Part shown: one piece after another, positions 53,742 to 62,827 of the stretch
How positions within the stretch are numbered: position 1 is the stretch's first letter
How the letters are laid out: every line of letters begins with the position of its first letter
Assembly: GCF_012927165.1 (NCBI RefSeq)
Contig: NZ_JABBGA010000002.1
Location: 248,001 to 312,000, forward strand
From: Zoogloea dura
GTDB lineage: Bacteria; Pseudomonadota; Gammaproteobacteria; Burkholderiales; Rhodocyclaceae
Direction: 5' to 3'
Length of the DNA: 64,000 bases
Program-made: the position numbers and the translations under genes
Notes under the pieces: model-generated
What the model was told of the DNA's origin: nothing
Databases searched by the model: none
The model's input: the letters and a program-made list of their open reading frames with translations, nothing else

Positions 53742-55457
53742 TCAGAAGAACAGGGTCAGCGCCAGGTTGAGGCGGAAGGCTGCGTCGGGCATGTCTGCCG
53801 GCTTGACCACCGGCCTGCCGGCGATGGCCTCGAAGCTGCCGGCACGGCCGGCCAGCCGCAGCCCGAGGCCGGTCGACATCAACGTTGCTGCGCGGCCGCT
53901 GGCCAGCATCCGGACATGGCCGGCATCCCAGAAGCCGAAGGGTTCGACCTGCCAGGGTGTGCCGAAAGCTGCCATGGCGAAGCCGCGCGCCAGCTCACTG
54001 CGCCAGTAGCCTCCCCGGTCACCGGCCTGCGCCGACTCGGCAAAGCCGCGCACGCTGGCCACGCCGCCGACGAAGATCTGCTCGGAGGAAAACAGCGGCA
54101 CGCCGCTCCACTGCGCGGCCCCGTTGCCGCGCAGACTCCAGCTGCCGGGCAGGTTGAGGACGACACTGGCCGACACATCCAGCTTGCTGAAACGTGAACG
54201 GGCCGCCGGTCCGGCGCTGCTGCCCACATCGCTCATCGCACCGAAGGCCTCGAGGCCCCGCGACAGGCCGCCATCCACGGTCCATTGCCCGCTGCCAGCG
54301 GCGGCATCGAAGCGGCTCAGGCGATTGACGCCGGCGCGCAGCACCGTCAGCCGTTGCGGCACCAGGCCCACGTTGTTGATCTCGCGGCGGGCCTCGCGCA
54401 GGGACAAGGCCAGGTCACCGCCGATCTTGCTGTCCTGGTCGCGGTAGAGCAGGCGGTTCCAGGCCGCCGCATAGTTGGTGGAGGTGCCGTAGAGCAAGGC
54501 CACGTTGCCGATCAGGCTTTGATACTCGGACCAGGTGGCCAGCATGCTGAAGGTGTTGTAGCCCCAGGGCAGGGAGAGGCCGGCATTCAGCGCGTTGGTT
54601 TCGATGCTGCCGGTGTAACCCAGGTTGAAGGTCTCGTTGAAGCCTGCCAGATCGCCGGCTTCCAGCCCGAGGCGCAGGCGACGCGAGCCGGTGCTGCGGC
54701 TGCCCTGGTTGTCCATGCCCAGCCATGGGCGCCAGGCCGACGCCGCCGGCGGGTCGACGATGTCGAGCACCGACGCGCCCGGCATCTCGCCCGGCAGGAT
54801 GCGCACCTGGGCCTGGCGGCCGCGCACCCGGTTCAACTGATCAAGGCCCTGCTCGATGTCGCGTAGCTGGAGGATGTCATCCACGCCCATCGGCAAGGCC
54901 AGGCGCAGGCCCGCATCCGCCCAGGCCTCCACCACGAAGGGGTGCCCGTTGTAGCGGATCGCCTCGATGCGACCGGGCACGATGCGCAGGCTGAGCACCC
55001 CGCCCGCCAGGTTCTGGCCGAGGGCATAGGCGCGGGAGGTGATGAAGCCGGCGTCGATGAGGTCCTTGTTGAGCCCCTGCAACAACAGCCCGATGCGCAC
55101 GGCCCCCAGCGCCAGCCCCCGGAAGGGCCCCAGCCGGCGCTCGAGGACGCTGGACGGCAGCAGCTCCCCGCCCTCCACCTCGATACGCTCGATGCGAAAC
55201 ATCGGCGCCCGCTCCTCCACCGCCGCCGGATCCTGCGCGCCGCCGTCACCGGCCGCGGCGGGTGCCGCCGCCGGGGCGGGCACGGCCGGCGTCGCGACGT
55301 GGGGAGTCTGCTGGCGCAGCAGGCGCTCGCGCGCCTTCTCCATCTCCTCGCGCAGGATGCGGTCGCCCTGGTCCTGGCGGGGCTGGGGCGGCGGAAACTG
55401 CTGGGCCAGGGCCGGCGTGCTGCCGGCCAGCGCCAGCGTGATCATGAGGCGGCGCAT
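53742..55457 (-). CDS. TpsB-type outer membrane transporter (ShlB/FhaC family)
   Basis: The pore of a two-partner secretion system. The 571-residue protein has a signal peptide (MITLALAGSTPALAQ), a linker helix with a Pro/Ala-rich stretch, a POTRA domain (about 85-165: FRIERIEVEGGELLPSSVLE), a second POTRA-like unit and a 16-strand barrel with the conserved VRGFAESAQAGDRGGYWRSE motif and terminal Phe (LNLALTLFF). It begins four bases after the tpsA stop, an A-B gene order. It should export the adjacent TpsA protein. Confidence 0.93.
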   Translation of the reverse strand: MRRLMITLALAGSTPALAQQFPPPQPRQDQGDRILREEMEKARERLLRQQTPHVATPAVPAPAAAPAAAGDGGAQDPAAVEERAPMFRIERIEVEGGELLPSSVLERRLGPFRGLALGAVRIGLLLQGLNKDLIDAGFITSRAYALGQNLAGGVLSLRIVPGRIEAIRYNGHPFVVEAWADAGLRLALPMGVDDILQLRDIEQGLDQLNRVRGRQAQVRILPGEMPGASVLDIVDPPAASAWRPWLGMDNQGSRSTGSRRLRLGLEAGDLAGFNETFNLGYTGSIETNALNAGLSLPWGYNTFSMLATWSEYQSLIGNVALLYGTSTNYAAAWNRLLYRDQDSKIGGDLALSLREARREINNVGLVPQRLTVLRAGVNRLSRFDAAAGSGQWTVDGGLSRGLEAFGAMSDVGSSAGPAARSRFSKLDVSASVVLNLPGSWSLRGNGAAQWSGVPLFSSEQIFVGGVASVRGFAESAQAGDRGGYWRSELARGFAMAAFGTPWQVEPFGFWDAGHVRMLASGRAATLMSTGLGLRLAGRAGSFEAIAGRPVVKPADMPDAAFRLNLALTLFF

Positions 55458-55461
55458 GGTT

Positions 55462-57426
55462 TCAGCGCCACACGGCACTGAACAGCCCGAGGTGGCTGCT
55501 CAGCACGACAGGGTCGCGGCCCGGCGTCCGGACCACGGTGATCACGCCATCCACCCCCTCGCTGGCGGTGAAGAAGCCGCGGTTCTGGATCGCCTCGCCG
55601 GTGAGGCTGAGGCGCCCGGCCTGAGCCGTGAAGCCACCGCCCTGGTCGATGGCATACAGCTCGGCCCAGCGGTCACCGAAGAAGGCGCGCAAGCCATCCG
55701 AGCGGCTCAGCGCCACATGCACCGGCACGCCATTGGCCTCCACCCGCGGCACGTCGAGGCGCATGTCCTTGGCGGCCAGGATCAACCCGCCATCGTTGAC
55801 CAGGGTCCCGCCGCCCTTGATGCGCACATCCCGGCCGGACAGGATCTGCCCACCCACCAGGCTCTCGCTGCTGCTGGCCGAGCGGCGGCAGAACAGGATG
55901 TTGCAGGACTCGCGAAGGCTCACCGTGCCGGTCAGCCAGGCCCGGTTGAGGATGCCGCCAGCCACGTCCAGCACCACGTCACCCTGGTTGGCAAAGACGT
56001 AGCCGCCGAGGTTGTGCAGGCTGCCGGCGGTGATCCGCACGTCGCCCTCGGCCACCCAGTAGGCCATGTGCTCCGGGTCGGCCAGCTGGCCGTTGTCGAT
56101 GCTCACTCCGCTGCGCCGGCGCGGCAGGCCGAGCCAGGTCTGCTCGCTCCGTGTCCAGCGCTGCGCCCCGGCCCCGGCGACGAACTGCGACTCGTTGAGC
56201 GCCACCCCGCCCACCTGGACGATCAGCGCACCGTTGGAGACGATGCGCCCGTTGATGTTGCGCAGGTCGCCGCCGGCCTCGAGCAGCACGTCGTCGCTGG
56301 CCCCGAAGAGCACCGCCGTGCTGCCGCCGGCCGGCGTCTGGTTGACGATATCGCCGCCGGCGACGATGCGCACGGCGGCGGGGCTGGCCCCTTCGGCCGG
56401 GTTGCGGGCCGCACCGGCGAGGCTGCCCCCAAGGTTGGTCACGCCGCCCATCACCGCAATGTCCAGGCTGCCCGACGCCGTGATGGCGGGCATCTGCGCC
56501 TCGCTGCCGGCCTGCTGGAGCAGGGAGCCGGCATGGATGCGGATGTCGCCGGCCGCATCCATTCGGCCACCGCGTTGCTCCAGCGCACCGCTGCTGTCGA
56601 GCACGAGGTCGCCGGCCGTGGCCTGGATCTGGCCGGCGTTGCGCACGCCCGCACCGGCGTCGGTGACGAGCAGTTCGATGCGCCCTGAGCTGAGCCTGGC
56701 CTGGCTGCCCAGGTCGATCACGAAGCCCTGGCCCGGCGTGCTGCCCGCACGGTAGTAGGCCCACGGCGTGAGGTTGTCGGTGGGCGACGCGGCTGTGTCG
56801 AAGAGCACGCTCGCGTCGCCACCCACCAGGCGGACCAGGGCGGTGGGCGAACTGTAGGCGTTGCCGAGCGGCCCGTTCACCTCGATCCGCCGGGCCAGCA
56901 GCTCGAGGCGGATCAGATCGGCCGCCAGCCCGTCAGGGCCGATGCTGATGCTGCTGCCCGCCGCGCTGCCCCCGGTGCTTGCCGACACATACACCTGCGC
57001 ACCGCCGCTGCCGTCATTGCGCGGGTCGAGGGTGACGCTGCCGGCCACCAGTGCGACGCTGCCGAAGTTGACGAAGCTCCCGCCATTGACCACCAGACCG
57101 TTGGGATTGGCGATGACCAGGTTGGCCCGCGGCCCGTCCACCGACAACGCCCCCTCGAGGCGGGACGGCGAGGCGGAGCGGACCTCCGCCACAATGCTGC
57201 GGGCGCCTGCGTCCTGGTTCTGGAAGGCCGCACCGGCGCGATCCACGTCAAAGCGCGAGAAGGCGTTGTAGGACACACCGCCGGCAGGCGGGGCCACCTG
57301 GATGCGGGTCTTGCCCGACGGGTCGAGCACTGCAGAGGTGGCGGTGGAGCCATCCGGCACGATGCCGCTGCCGGCATGCAGGGCCAGCGGAAAGAAGCAG
57401 GCGATCCGGAAAAATGATTTCAGCAT
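55462..57426 (-). CDS. Short TpsA protein with filamentous hemagglutinin N-terminal (TPS) domain
   Basis: A 654-residue secreted exoprotein. It has a signal peptide to about residue 18 (LALHA), the TPS domain (about 19-260) with YNAFSRFDVDRAG and the NPNG motif at 107-110 (IANPNGLVVNG), and then beta-helix repeats. A pair of cysteines lies at 508 and 513 (SCNILFCR). It lacks the long hemagglutinin repeats, pretoxin domain or toxin tail of larger members, and no immunity gene follows. A function as adhesin or biofilm protein is likely but not shown. It is co-transcribed with the TpsB gene downstream. Confidence 0.9.
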   Translation of the reverse strand: MLKSFFRIACFFPLALHAGSGIVPDGSTATSAVLDPSGKTRIQVAPPAGGVSYNAFSRFDVDRAGAAFQNQDAGARSIVAEVRSASPSRLEGALSVDGPRANLVIANPNGLVVNGGSFVNFGSVALVAGSVTLDPRNDGSGGAQVYVSASTGGSAAGSSISIGPDGLAADLIRLELLARRIEVNGPLGNAYSSPTALVRLVGGDASVLFDTAASPTDNLTPWAYYRAGSTPGQGFVIDLGSQARLSSGRIELLVTDAGAGVRNAGQIQATAGDLVLDSSGALEQRGGRMDAAGDIRIHAGSLLQQAGSEAQMPAITASGSLDIAVMGGVTNLGGSLAGAARNPAEGASPAAVRIVAGGDIVNQTPAGGSTAVLFGASDDVLLEAGGDLRNINGRIVSNGALIVQVGGVALNESQFVAGAGAQRWTRSEQTWLGLPRRRSGVSIDNGQLADPEHMAYWVAEGDVRITAGSLHNLGGYVFANQGDVVLDVAGGILNRAWLTGTVSLRESCNILFCRRSASSSESLVGGQILSGRDVRIKGGGTLVNDGGLILAAKDMRLDVPRVEANGVPVHVALSRSDGLRAFFGDRWAELYAIDQGGGFTAQAGRLSLTGEAIQNRGFFTASEGVDGVITVVRTPGRDPVVLSSHLGLFSAVWR

Positions 57427-57678: not shown

Positions 57679-58293
57679 ATGAACACGCTCAAACTCACTT
57701 ACTTCGACTTTCCCGGCGGCCGGGCCGAACCCGCGCGCCTGGCCCTGCACCTGGGCGGCATCGCCTTCGAGGACCATCGCTTCCCGTTCGCCGACTTTGC
57801 CGAAGTGCGCAAGACCACCCCGCTGCGCCAGGTGCCCACCCTGCATATCAACGGCGTGCAGGTCACCCAGAGCGACGCGATCACCCGCTATGCCGGCAGG
57901 CTGGCCGGCCTGTACCCCGAAGACGCGCTGCAGGCCTTGTTGTGCGACGAGGTGCTGGGCGCCCTGGAAGACATCAACGTGAAGCTCGGCGCCACCTTCG
58001 GCCTCACCGGCGAAGCCCTCGAAAGCGCACGCAAGGCCCTGGTGACGGGCGCCCTGCCCCTGTATCTGAAATGGCTCGAGACACAGCTCGAACAGCACGG
58101 TGGCGAATATCTTGTCGACCAGCGCCTGACGGTGGCCGACCTCAAGGCCTTCGTGGTGCTGCGCTGGCTGGTGTCCGGCAAGCTCGACCACATCCCCGCC
58201 GACCTGCTCGACACGCTGGCCCCGAAACTCACCGCCTACCTGCAGCGCATCGCCGCCACCCCGGCGATCGCCCAATACTACGCATCCCTGTAA
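57679..58293 (+). CDS. Glutathione S-transferase
   Basis: A 204-residue GST. The thioredoxin-like N-terminal domain includes Tyr in LTYFDFPGGRAEPARLALHLGG, the cis-Pro and glutathione-binding TLRQVPTL-like segment (TPLRQVPTLHINGVQVTQSDAITRYAG is broken here into VPTL and QSDAI motifs). The Tyr near residue 7 and the sequence pattern suggest a sigma/alpha-like cytosolic form. The helical C-terminal domain has the N-capping LVDQRLTVADLKAF. The ATG at 57679 has CAGGA upstream; earlier in-frame codons are not similar to GSTs. Substrate unknown. Confidence 0.92.
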   Translation: MNTLKLTYFDFPGGRAEPARLALHLGGIAFEDHRFPFADFAEVRKTTPLRQVPTLHINGVQVTQSDAITRYAGRLAGLYPEDALQALLCDEVLGALEDINVKLGATFGLTGEALESARKALVTGALPLYLKWLETQLEQHGGEYLVDQRLTVADLKAFVVLRWLVSGKLDHIPADLLDTLAPKLTAYLQRIAATPAIAQYYASL

Positions 58294-58333: not shown

Positions 58334-59017
58334 CTAGCGCGCCACCCAGCCCCCGCACACCGGGAACACCTGCCCCACAAAGCAACTGGCCGCGTCGCTG
58401 CACAGGTAGGCCGCGAAGGCCGCATCCTCCTCCGCGCCCACCAGGCGGCCCAGCGGCACCTCGCGCTTGAGGCGCTCCTGGAAGCGCGGGTTGGCCTGCA
58501 CCTCCGGCGGGAAGTAAGTAGGGTTGTCCACGAAGTTCTGGGCGATCGCATTGACCTGCACATTGTGCGGCGCCACCTCCACCCCCACCGCCTGCACGTA
58601 GGCCAGCTGCGCGCCGCGGGCGGCGCTGTAGCTGGAGGCGCGCTTGATGCCGCGCAGGGCCGAGGCGCTGCCCATCACCAGGATCTTGCCCGCCCCGCGC
58701 TCGATCATGGCGGGCAGCACGGCGCGCACCAGGCGCGGCAGCGGGTCCACCAGGGCGGCAAAGGTGGCCCGCCATTCATCGTCGCCCACCTCGGTCACCG
58801 GCGTGGTCGGCGCCGCGATGGCGAGGTTGGCAAGCAGCACGTCTACGCGCCCCGCTGCCGCAACGGCCGCCGCCGGCGCGTCCGGATCAAGCAGCGGGTC
58901 GGTGCTGGCGATCACCGTGGCCCCCTGGCGGGCCAGCACATCGCACAGCACCGGGCCCATGAAGGCGTCGGCGTGGGTCACCAGGATGCGCTTGTCGCGC
59001 AGGGGCAGGTCGGTCAT
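58334..59017 (-). CDS. Probable halohydrin dehalogenase (SDR superfamily)
   Basis: A 227-residue Rossmann-fold protein that would usually be labelled short-chain dehydrogenase, but key residues fit halohydrin dehalogenases, which convert vicinal haloalcohols to epoxides without NAD(P). The cofactor glycine motif TGxxxGxG is replaced by T14-HADA-F19-M-G21, the T-X4-F-X-G halide-pocket pattern. The catalytic set is Ser117-X12-Tyr130-X3-Arg134, with Arg in place of the SDR Lys. The C-terminus GQVFPVCGGW resembles HheC GQVFWLAGGF. GAGGAG before the ATG at 59017 sets the start. A degenerate SDR with another function is the alternative. Confidence 0.75.
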   Translation of the reverse strand: MTDLPLRDKRILVTHADAFMGPVLCDVLARQGATVIASTDPLLDPDAPAAAVAAAGRVDVLLANLAIAAPTTPVTEVGDDEWRATFAALVDPLPRLVRAVLPAMIERGAGKILVMGSASALRGIKRASSYSAARGAQLAYVQAVGVEVAPHNVQVNAIAQNFVDNPTYFPPEVQANPRFQERLKREVPLGRLVGAEEDAAFAAYLCSDAASCFVGQVFPVCGGWVAR

Positions 59018-59224
59018 GGCGAAGGTCTCCTCGAGGCGGGCGGCATGGCGCCCATGTTGTAATGATGGCGCACCCGCGCCCTGCCCCCCCTTGGAGCTGG
59101 CCGCGGGCAGGCACGCCAGATTGAATCCCGACCCCGGGCTTTGCGCAAGCCTGGCCCACGGCCTTGCCGCATTCCCCGCCCCTTGATGCACAATGGAGCC
59201 CGCCCCGCGGTTTGAACCGGAACA

Positions 59225-60385
59225 ATGCCTTCTCTGCCCCGCAGCATCGCCCACCTGGACATGGACGCGTTCTACGCGTCGGTGGAGCTGCTGCGCTATC
59301 CGCAACTGCGTGGCCAGCCCGTGGTGGTGGGCGGGCGCCGGGCCACGCCGGGCGGCGAGACAGGACACTTCCCCCACCTGCGCGACTACGTCGGGCGTGG
59401 CGTGATCACCACCGCCACCTATGAAGCCCGGGCCCTCGGCGTGCATTCCGGCATGGGCCTGATGAAGGCTGCGCAGTTGGCGCCGGAGGCCGTGCTGCTG
59501 CCCGCCGACTTCGACGCCTACCGGCATTACTCCCGCCTGTTCAAGGCCGCCGTGCGCGAGATTGCGCCGGAGCTGGAAGACCGCGGCATCGACGAGATTT
59601 ACCTCGACCTCAGCGCCCTCAACCCCGACGGCAGCCGCGAAGGCGCCCGCGCCATCGCCCTGCGCCTGCAGCAGGCGGTGCGCGACGCTACCGGGCTGTC
59701 CTGTTCCATCGGCGTGGCGCCCAACAAACTGCTCGCCAAGCTGTGCTCCGACCTCGACAAGCCCGCCGGCATCAGCGTGGTGGCCGCCGCCGACATCCCG
59801 GCCCGCATCTGGCCGCTGCCGGCCAAGCGCATCAACGGCATCGGCCCCAAGGCGGCGGCGCGGCTGGACAGCCTGGGCATCCACAGTATCGGCGAGCTGG
59901 CCGCGGCGGACCCGGCCTGGCTGCAGGAACACTTCGGCGAGCGCTACGGCGTGTGGCTGCACAACGCCGCGCAGGGCATCGACGAGCGCCCGGTGGTCAC
60001 CTACAGCGAGCCCAAGAGCCTGTCCCGCGAGACCACCTTCGAGCGCGACCTGCACCCCCGGCTCGACCGGGATGCCTTGTCGCGGAGCTTCACCCGCCTG
60101 TGCGAGCAGCTGGCGGCCGACTTGGCGCGCAAGGGCTACGTGGGCAAGACCATCGGGCTCAAGCTGCGCTTCGACAATTTTCATACGGTCACCCGCGACC
60201 AGACCCTGCCCCGCCCCATCGGCGAAGCCGCGGCGATCCGCCAGGCCGCCGGCGAGTGCCTCAAGCGCGTACCCCTGGAGCGGCGCATCCGCCTGCTCGG
60301 CGTGCGCGTGGCCAGCCTGACGCGGCACGATGCCGTCCCCGAACACGAAGCAGCGCAACCGGCCCAGGCCGAACTCTTCGCCTGA
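59225..60385 (+). CDS. dinB: DNA polymerase IV
   Basis: A Y-family translesion polymerase of 386 residues. Catalytic motifs are HLDMDAFYASVE near residue 10 and GIDEIYLDLS near residue 120. The two helix-hairpin motifs are in the thumb (INGIGPKAAARLDSLGI), and the C-terminal little-finger domain ends in QAELFA, a beta-clamp-binding motif. No LexA box is visible upstream. It is followed 42 bases later by ovoA, and the two may be co-transcribed. Confidence 0.95.
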   Translation: MPSLPRSIAHLDMDAFYASVELLRYPQLRGQPVVVGGRRATPGGETGHFPHLRDYVGRGVITTATYEARALGVHSGMGLMKAAQLAPEAVLLPADFDAYRHYSRLFKAAVREIAPELEDRGIDEIYLDLSALNPDGSREGARAIALRLQQAVRDATGLSCSIGVAPNKLLAKLCSDLDKPAGISVVAAADIPARIWPLPAKRINGIGPKAAARLDSLGIHSIGELAAADPAWLQEHFGERYGVWLHNAAQGIDERPVVTYSEPKSLSRETTFERDLHPRLDRDALSRSFTRLCEQLAADLARKGYVGKTIGLKLRFDNFHTVTRDQTLPRPIGEAAAIRQAAGECLKRVPLERRIRLLGVRVASLTRHDAVPEHEAAQPAQAELFA

Positions 60386-60427: not shown

Positions 60428-62827
60428 ATGTCCCACCCGAACCTCGACACGGCGATGCCCTCCGCCGTGGAGCCCTGGCGCAAGAACCTGCGCGGCACCC
60501 ACGACGCCGCCCTGCAAGGCCCCCGCCCCGCCTGGTGGTGGACCGGCCTGAGCCCGCAAGACTGCCCCGGCCGCCAGCCCGACGGCACGCTCACTGCCCT
60601 GCCCCAGCCCCGGCTCGATACCTGTACCCGCGAATCCGTGCTGGCCGCCTTCGACAACGGCTGGACCCTCACCGAACTCTTGTTCGCCAGCCTGCAGGGC
60701 GAAGAAGCCTTCTACCGGCCGCCTTACCACCATCTGCGCCACCCGATGGTCTTTTACTACTGCCACCCGGCCACCCTGTACATCAACAAGCTGCGGGTGG
60801 CGGGCCTCATCGACAACCCGATCAATCCCTATTTCGAACGCATCTTCGAAACCGGCGTGGACGAGATGCGCTGGGATGACATGTCGAAGAACGAGATGGA
60901 GTGGCCCGACTTTGCCGAGGCCCACACCTACCGGGCACGCGTGTACACCACCGTGCGCCATCTCATCGAGACCCATCCCGACCTGGCCGACGGGCACCCG
61001 CCGATCACCATGGACCACCCCCTGTGGGCGCTCTTCATGGGCTTCGAGCACGAGCGCATCCACCTCGAGACCTCCTCGGTGCTGATCCGCGAGCTGCCGG
61101 CCGAACTGCTGCGCCGCCCAGCCGAATGGCCGGCCGTGCATGCCAGCGCCAACACGGCGGCCCACTTTCCGCCGCGGGCCGGGCAGGACTACCCCGTCGC
61201 CCGGCAGGTGTCCGTGCCCGCCAGCCGGGTCTGCCTGGGCAAGCCGCGCGACTGGCCCAGCTTCGGCTGGGACAACGAATACGGCCGCCGCGAGGTGGAT
61301 GTGCAGGCCTTCCAGGCCGACAGCCATCTGGTCTGCAACGGCGCCTTCCTGGAGTTCATCCAGAGCGGCGGCTACCTCGAGCAAGGCTGGTGGACCGAAG
61401 CCGGCTGGGAATGGCGCGGCTTCCGCAACAGCAAGTGGCCGTGTTTCTGGGTGCCGGATGGCCCCGCCGGCCTGCACCGCTACCGCCTGCGCACCCTCTT
61501 CGAGACCATCGAGATGCCGTGGAGCTGGCCCGCCGAGGTGAATGCCCACGAAGCCGCCGCCTACTGCGCCTGGCGCAGCGCGCGGGACGGCATCCCCTGT
61601 AGATTGCCCACCGAGGCCGAGCACAACGCCCTGCGCGACGCCTCCTGGGCCGACACCGATCCCCCCTCCCGCGTCGACGGAGCCCGCCTGGGCCGCGAGC
61701 AAGGCTGGAACAGCCAGCTGGCCCACGGCTCACCCTGGCCGGTGGATGCCGGCCAGCCCACGGCGGCGGGCATCCACGATGTGTTCGGCAATGTCTGGCA
61801 GTGGCACGGCGACGACTTCAACCCGCTGCCTGGCGCCCGCGTCCATCCCTACTACGACGACTTCTCCACCCCCTGCTACGACGGCCAGCACAGCATGATC
61901 CTGGGCGGCTCGTGGATCTCCTGCGGCGACGAGGCCAGCGTGTGGGCGCGCTTCCACTTCCGCCCCCACTTCTACCAGCACGCCGGCTTCCGGGTCGTCC
62001 AGGCGGCTCACGACGGCGGCGTGGTGAAGCTCGGCGGCGAGGGCAGTGCCAGCCAGGTCTATGAAGATGCCCGCATGGTGGACGACTACATGCTGCTCCA
62101 CCACGGAGAACCGCAATCCCAGATGCCGTGGCCCGGCGGCCCGCAGTGCGCCACCGCCTTTCCGCAGCGCTGTGCCGACTGGCTGATCGACGGCGCCCGC
62201 AAGTTCGGCTCCGGCACCGCCCGCGCCCTGGATGTGGGTTGCGCGGTGGGCGGCGCCAGCTTCGAGCTGGCCCGCGGCTTCGACGAGGTGCTGGGCGTGG
62301 ACCTCTCCCGCGCCTTCATCGACGCCGCCAATGTGCTCAGGAAGGATGGCAGCCGCGACTACTTCCGGCGTGACGAGGGCAATCTGGGCACCACCGTGAC
62401 GGCCCGCATCGATCCGTCCATCGAACGCCAGCGGGTCAGCTTCCGCCAGGCCGACGCCTGTTCGCTGCCGGCCGAGCTGGTGGACCTGGACGCCGTGCTG
62501 ATGGCCAACCTGCTATGCCGCCTGCCCAGCCCCAGGTCCCTGCTCGGCCGCCTCGGCGGCCCGCGGGGTCTGGTCAAGGTGGGGGGGCTGGTGGCCTTGT
62601 TCTCACCCTATTCGTGGCTGGAGCAATTCACCCCGCAGGAGGCGTGGATCGGCGGCTTCGAGAAGGACGGCCAGCCGCTGCGCAGCGCCGACGCCCTGAA
62701 GGCCTTCCTGAGGGACGAGGGCTTCGTGCTGCGGCGCGAGGAGGAGGTGCCACTGGTGATCCGCGAGCACGCCCGCAAGTACCAGTTCATCGTCACCCAC
62801 GGCATGCTCTGGCAGCGGGAGCGCTGA
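60428..62827 (+). CDS. ovoA: OvoA: 5-histidylcysteine sulfoxide synthase fused to methyltransferase
   Basis: A 799-residue enzyme for ovothiol A synthesis. An N-terminal DinB-like domain (about 30-220) has the iron ligands H208-x3-H212-x-E214 in EHERIHLETSSVL. A formylglycine-generating-enzyme-like domain (about 240-560) includes the NVWQWHGDDFNPL and DGQHSMILGGSWISCGDEAS segments. A C-terminal SAM methyltransferase domain (about 570-790) has the motif ALDVGCAVGGASFELA (Asp602). The three-domain order matches OvoA rather than EgtB, which lacks the methyltransferase. The enzyme couples His and Cys and N-methylates the thiohistidine. The separate C-S lyase OvoB is not in the window. Confidence 0.93.
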   Translation: MSHPNLDTAMPSAVEPWRKNLRGTHDAALQGPRPAWWWTGLSPQDCPGRQPDGTLTALPQPRLDTCTRESVLAAFDNGWTLTELLFASLQGEEAFYRPPYHHLRHPMVFYYCHPATLYINKLRVAGLIDNPINPYFERIFETGVDEMRWDDMSKNEMEWPDFAEAHTYRARVYTTVRHLIETHPDLADGHPPITMDHPLWALFMGFEHERIHLETSSVLIRELPAELLRRPAEWPAVHASANTAAHFPPRAGQDYPVARQVSVPASRVCLGKPRDWPSFGWDNEYGRREVDVQAFQADSHLVCNGAFLEFIQSGGYLEQGWWTEAGWEWRGFRNSKWPCFWVPDGPAGLHRYRLRTLFETIEMPWSWPAEVNAHEAAAYCAWRSARDGIPCRLPTEAEHNALRDASWADTDPPSRVDGARLGREQGWNSQLAHGSPWPVDAGQPTAAGIHDVFGNVWQWHGDDFNPLPGARVHPYYDDFSTPCYDGQHSMILGGSWISCGDEASVWARFHFRPHFYQHAGFRVVQAAHDGGVVKLGGEGSASQVYEDARMVDDYMLLHHGEPQSQMPWPGGPQCATAFPQRCADWLIDGARKFGSGTARALDVGCAVGGASFELARGFDEVLGVDLSRAFIDAANVLRKDGSRDYFRRDEGNLGTTVTARIDPSIERQRVSFRQADACSLPAELVDLDAVLMANLLCRLPSPRSLLGRLGGPRGLVKVGGLVALFSPYSWLEQFTPQEAWIGGFEKDGQPLRSADALKAFLRDEGFVLRREEEVPLVIREHARKYQFIVTHGMLWQRER

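Follow-up and report, generated by a model that had tools for sequence, protein, structure and literature searches.

A probable D-type halohydrin dehalogenase gene in Zoogloea dura and a phage-borne homologue

The window, a 64,000-nucleotide stretch of Zoogloea dura (contig NZ_JABBGA010000002.1, positions 248,001 to 312,000), carries an open reading frame (ORF) whose product resembles short-chain dehydrogenases/reductases (SDRs) and was originally predicted to be a halohydrin dehalogenase (HHDH). The question was which of the two it is, and what such an enzyme might do in its host. The ORF, here termed hheD, runs from 59017 to 58334 on the minus strand, starts with ATG and encodes 227 amino acids plus a stop codon. 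It was annotated as follows:

58334..59017, minus strand: hheD, D-type halohydrin dehalogenase by sequence (ORF reading, PDB sequence search, tree)
58532..58537, minus strand: N161-F162, possible part of the halide pocket by analogy with HheC, aligning with the N-Y that we take, in HheC numbering, to follow P175
58616..58669, minus strand: motif 2 (catalytic triad), S117-X12-Y130-X3-R134, defined as in the available text of PMC4989007
58955..58978, minus strand: motif 1 (nucleophile pocket), T14-X4-F19-X-G21, defined as in the same source
59027..59032, minus strand: GAGGAG, likely ribosome-binding site, 9 nt upstream of the hheD ATG, read off the sequence

According to the available text of PMC4989007, the motifs of HHDHs are T-X4-F/Y-X-G and S-X12-Y-X3-R. 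Where SDRs have TGxxxGxG, the hheD product reads T14-HADA-F19-M-G21, and in place of YxxxK it has Y130-SAA-R134, so the classical SDR signature is absent. The replacement of the glycine motif at residues 14–21 and the catalytic set S117-X12-Y130-X3-R134 had both been predicted, and the motif check on the ORF bore them out with the residue numbers correct. Both motifs were then counted in 979 ORFs from 81 loci, comprising the window and the best 80 of 492 stretches that encode an hheD relative in the genome collection. In order and 60–140 residues apart, they occurred in 80 of the 81 HheD ORFs and in none of the 898 neighbouring ORFs, whereas motif 1 alone (with F, Y or W) was found in 75/898 of the latter; the pair is therefore informative and motif 1 by itself is not. 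The sole HheD ORF failing the pair, at locus L107 (8001-8681), has Ala instead of the Gly of motif 1, a position described in the available text of PMC11976700 as hardly mutable in HheC and HheG. The two motifs were also found in 0/17 SDRs of the same genome, a figure that is not independent because those 17 had been chosen for the glycine motif and YxxxK. Among 23 HheD members, 70 of 227 columns were invariant, including T14, F19, G21, S117, Y130 and R134.

In a PDB sequence search, the hheD product matched 7b73 with 336 bits (1e-99), 8xxb with 318 bits and HheB with 177 bits, and the best ordinary SDR lay far behind the HheD matches (79 bits, 5e-21). Foldseek with the AF2 model returned 7b73 (titled HheD2) first and then 8xxb (titled HheD8 triple mutant with chloride), the identities being 69% and 67%, respectively. 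The model had a mean pLDDT of 81, with residues 118-125, 161-166, 187-191 and 220-227 below 50; it supports the predicted fold and not the pocket, which is poorly modelled because its loops fall among these stretches. As for the subtype, both identities lie within the 57–95% by which HheD19-38 resemble the verified HheD to HheD6 in the available text of PMC4989007. The line of <30% between subtypes given there does not fit, the hheD product being 45% identical to HheB.

For the phylogeny, 28 HHDH rows (23 HheD members, HheD2 and the HheD8 mutant from the PDB, HheB, HheC and 6a41; HheA and HheE-G were left out) were combined with SDRs from the same genome. From 33 SDR matches, 19 stretches were used, two of which had no ORF passing the filter for glycine motif and YxxxK, leaving 17. 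In the IQ-TREE tree, one branch with support 100/99 split the HHDH rows from all 17 SDRs, with hheD on the side of HheB, HheC and 6a41; the program flagged long branches, including that of HheC. Loss of the glycine motif by drift in an ordinary NAD(P)-dependent SDR would accord with the profile searches, in which only SDR families were named (two Pfam families above cut-offs; 178 NCBIfam families, the 25 listed being SDR families, all below cut-offs). This reading is scarcely credible, given that HHDH-type residues stand in place of both the glycine motif and YxxxK and that identity and tree place the product inside HheD, the tree already contradicting it. Motifs, homology, tree and fold search thus upheld the predicted family, and the gene very probably encodes a cofactor-free HHDH of the D type, with its activity deduced from sequence. 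The prediction had also mentioned an HheD-type member from Dechloromonas: four of the kept loci (L065, L074, L077, L078) do come from this genus, but the word is absent from the main text of PMC4989007.

The distribution of hheD was determined at a match threshold of E <= 1e-40, with the own genome included. Matches were present in 14/23 Zoogloea genomes, in at least 32/249 genomes of the family sample and in at least 4/398 genomes of the phylum sample, the latter two counts being lower bounds because scoring was limited to 11 and 7 candidates per genome, respectively. The best 80 loci of the 492 were 74-94% identical to the hheD product, the closest being L042 from a Zoogloea sp. metagenome-assembled genome (MAG), and spanned Burkholderiales, Marinobacter, Pseudomonas, Thiothrix and MAGs labelled Holophagaceae, Cytophagales and Desulfatitalea, some of which labels may reflect contamination. 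These loci hold the closest relatives, and the contexts of distant HheD genes lie outside the sample.

Within the window, hheD is accompanied by the following genes:

53745-55457, minus strand: tpsB, two-partner secretion, same strand as hheD
55465-57426, minus strand: tpsA, two-partner secretion, same strand as hheD
57679..58290, plus strand: gene for a GST-like protein, convergent neighbour of hheD, not in a conserved unit with it
59225..60382, plus strand: dinB, DNA polymerase IV, divergent neighbour of hheD
60428..62824, plus strand: ovoA, 5-histidylcysteine sulfoxide synthase, forms a pair with dinB in Zoogloea whether hheD is present or not

Genes around hheD were called with a custom gene caller, 8 of the 81 loci lacking a neighbour on one side, and the ORFs were clustered. 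No conserved partner of hheD beyond a genus or small group was found in these 81 closest loci; the commonest other neighbour cluster was present in 9/81, at varying positions, and 49 of the 73 loci with both neighbours had no same-strand gene within 60 nt of hheD. The dinB gene was near hheD in 7/81 loci (five from Zoogloea, L096 and L109), tpsA with tpsB in 6/81 including the window and ovoA in 5/81, these last two in Zoogloea only. Ten Zoogloea stretches were compared, seven taken around ovoA and three picked for the presence of hheD. All ten had dinB and ovoA paired, and hheD was within 0/7 of the ovoA-centred stretches: three of these genomes (G005, G012, G020) have no hheD match, and four (G003, G004, G013, G021) have hheD elsewhere. 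The window, L042, G001, G006 and G016 (the last three being the genomes of L047, L067 and L046 in another collection) share one layout, in which hheD is found at the dinB end of the pair and tpsA-tpsB farther out; tpsA-tpsB and hheD possibly form one accessory block beside dinB-ovoA.

The same data bear on the earlier suggestion that hheD belongs to an electrophile-detoxification cluster with the GST and ovothiol synthesis. GST and ovoA do lie within 4 kb of hheD, and ovoA is found more often in genomes of the family sample that carry hheD (21/32 vs 52/217 of the others, p = 5e-6), but by genus the association fades (8/16 with hheD vs 15/52 without, p = 0.14), and the co-occurrence was therefore taken as common descent, not function. 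Among the members listed, genera g1, g48, g49 and g64 also have ovoA in genomes without an hheD match. A gene of the GST cluster adjoins hheD in only two of the 81 loci, the window and L042 (in L060 it is four genes away), and dinB-ovoA stands without hheD in seven Zoogloea stretches. The proposed link to GST and thiol genes did not hold up against these counts, and such a cluster is quite improbable.

An epoxide hydrolase, used as a single query, matched none of the 979 ORFs at 1e-5 (best 4e-4), and in the own genome gave one partial match (residues 3-111 of 274, 34%). Because of this lack of matches, the context of hheD, unlike that of HheC, gives no pointer to a dehalogenation pathway. Two upstream neighbours of hheD were alpha/beta hydrolases by Pfam (Abhydrolase_6). 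Among the genes of up to 1000 aa that adjoin hheD outside the window (76 on the upstream side and 76 downstream), HMGL-like was the most frequent Pfam family (5/76). An HMG-CoA lyase-like gene comes immediately after hheD in five loci (L044, L045, L051, L055 and L074); in all of these except L074, a biotin carboxylase gene also stands one or two genes ahead of hheD, as if hheD had been inserted in a leucine degradation operon; in three other loci it precedes a photolyase gene. Upstream regions (<=200 nt, 80 loci) gave no shared motif, their k-mers rising barely above one crude shuffle (commonest 8-mer in 11 loci vs 8 shuffled, commonest 10-mer in 6 vs 4) and the commonest being GC-rich or similar to ribosome-binding sites.

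Two further relatives were noted. On L128, a contig classed as viral, positions 2-418 encode the C-terminal part of an HheD-like protein (65% identity), followed at 490-1314 by an alpha/beta hydrolase with PDB matches to 8hgu (alpha/beta hydrolase, 260 bits), 9c2g (isobutylene epoxide hydrolase, 211) and 1ehy (soluble epoxide hydrolase, 183), and with no NCBIfam family above cut-off. On L172 (4793-6666; Novosphingobium plasmid pSA2), an annotated epoxide hydrolase family gene is followed after 11 nt by that of a 45% identical relative, in which Ser replaces the Thr of motif 1, and the two are a plausible halohydrin-to-diol pair.

According to the available texts of PMC4989007 and PMC11976700, the Tyr of HheC serves as the base, with its pKa lowered by the Arg, and the nucleophile pocket is lined by the motif 1 loop. 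Since the hheD product has all motif residues, cofactor-free interconversion of halide and epoxide is the expected chemistry. By analogy with HheC, Tyr130, with its pKa lowered by Arg134, would take the hydroxyl proton of a vicinal haloalcohol held by Ser117, and the alkoxide would close to the epoxide while the halide leaves into a pocket replacing the NAD(P) site. This pocket would be formed by the T14/F19/G21 loop, probably together with the N161-F162 loop. In reverse, the enzyme would open epoxides with halide, azide, cyanide or nitrite. In its host, hheD is a single accessory gene with no pathway beside it, and its role, judged by analogy, is most likely to detoxify or salvage small halohydrins or epoxides.

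A substantial, though lesser, chance falls to another natural reaction of HheD, in which a different nucleophile or leaving group opens or closes the epoxide and dehalogenation is a laboratory side activity, the fold and the promiscuous halide chemistry having been kept; its assignment to the HHDH family would be unaffected. The strong conservation (the 70 invariant columns), the want of a conserved pathway neighbour and of a nearby match to the epoxide hydrolase query would suit such a reaction, but catabolic enzymes may be orphans too, and we know of no alternative substrate of HheD. In the available text of the review PMC4989007, only two of the HHDH genes then known share an operon with an epoxide hydrolase gene and room is left for other physiological functions; the same text also reports confirmed HHDH activity for the characterised HheD enzymes. 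HheD genes combine strong conservation with a patchy distribution and, within the loci studied, have no pathway partner beside them, which sharpens the question of what job HHDHs have in nature.

A scan of viral contigs returned seven relatives of the hheD product. On six contigs of contractile-tailed phages (L122-L127), a 228-aa HheD homologue is encoded that is 51-52% identical to the Zoogloea protein; a second scan with the phage sequences as queries gave the same six contigs. The gene was located as follows:

L125, 4983-5666: phage HheD homologue gene
L127, 4983-5666: phage HheD homologue gene

It is identical in five contigs, and the L127 protein is 78% identical to theirs, so two phage lineages were distinguished. 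The 88-kb phage contig (40 kb read) carries genes for tail sheath, tail tube, head-tail adaptor, UvsX-like and SSB-like proteins and 12 tRNA genes. In both lineages, the homologue is flanked by a 376-380-aa ORF on one side and the head-tail adaptor gene on the other. In the Pseudomonas jumbo phage PA5oct, homologues of these two flanking genes (gp292 and gp291) are adjacent, 35 nt apart, and are followed by dNMP kinase and tail sheath genes in the same order as in the hheD-bearing phage; the flank matches were 28-30% and 42-44% identical in the rows listed, those of the adaptor covering about 60%. Match coordinates placed the flanks side by side in five further Pseudomonas phages as well (PP408249, OR142618, OR805293, LC727698, LC727697), and because of this adjacency the homologue looks like cargo in this lineage.

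Between the lineages, pS of the homologue was 0.78 (saturated) and pN 0.16, compared with pN of 0.09-0.13 in three neighbouring genes, which points to purifying selection slightly weaker than on the neighbours. The tree placed it as sister to HheD2 (96/91) on a long branch, the bootstrap not having settled, and the best structural match of its model (pLDDT 86) was HheD2 as well (55% identity). Motif 2 is intact, and motif 1 reads T-X4-M-X-G, so the homologue fails the strict HHDH motif test, Met replacing the aromatic residue. Both phage proteins keep 54 of the 70 bacterial invariant columns, the changes including F19M, N64G, L65A and N165-P166-T167 to T-E-M. The available text of PMC11976700 names G, A, C, S, Q, H and Y as active variants of F12 in HheC and Phe as the only replacement of Tyr18 in HheG; with Met not among the F12 variants named, activity of the phage homologue is uncertain.

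In 50,697 phage records, 34 matches were obtained, all <60% identical; the 20 listed were 26-33% identical, and the few annotated among these bear SDR names. Judged by titles, none of 11 papers that mention both halohydrin dehalogenase and phage deals with a phage-borne enzyme. A tentative and rather doubtful proposal is that D-type HHDHs serve a general cellular function, not xenobiotic breakdown, valuable enough for PA5oct-related phages to keep a copy with a remodelled nucleophile pocket, maybe for another nucleophile or leaving group. As phages keep genes useful within infection, the substrate of the phage HheD should be present in the infected cell. The phage copy therefore offers a handle on natural HHDH function; it is the more novel result and the part worth following. 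The Zoogloea find is real, most likely a D-type HHDH, and not new in kind; the gain from it is modest, a further HheD, this one from Zoogloea, which Pfam and NCBIfam recognise only as an SDR.

Among known HHDHs, HheC (PDB 1pwx), from which the mechanism was carried over, shares both motifs with the hheD product and is distant (68 bits). In the available text of PMC11976700, the HheC gene shares its operon with one for an epoxide hydrolase. HheB (PDB 4zd6) has both motifs in common with the hheD product at 45% identity in the Foldseek alignment, but has Tyr instead of Phe in motif 1 and represents a separate subtype. The same two motifs uncovered 37 new HHDH genes in the available text of PMC4989007, with activity confirmed for the 19 selected for expression. 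Closest are the two D-type structures, which agree with the hheD product in their motifs: HheD8, represented by the engineered triple mutant with chloride (PDB 8xxb), at 67% identity, and HheD2 (PDB 7b73), at 69% identity (1e-99), which differs in its host.
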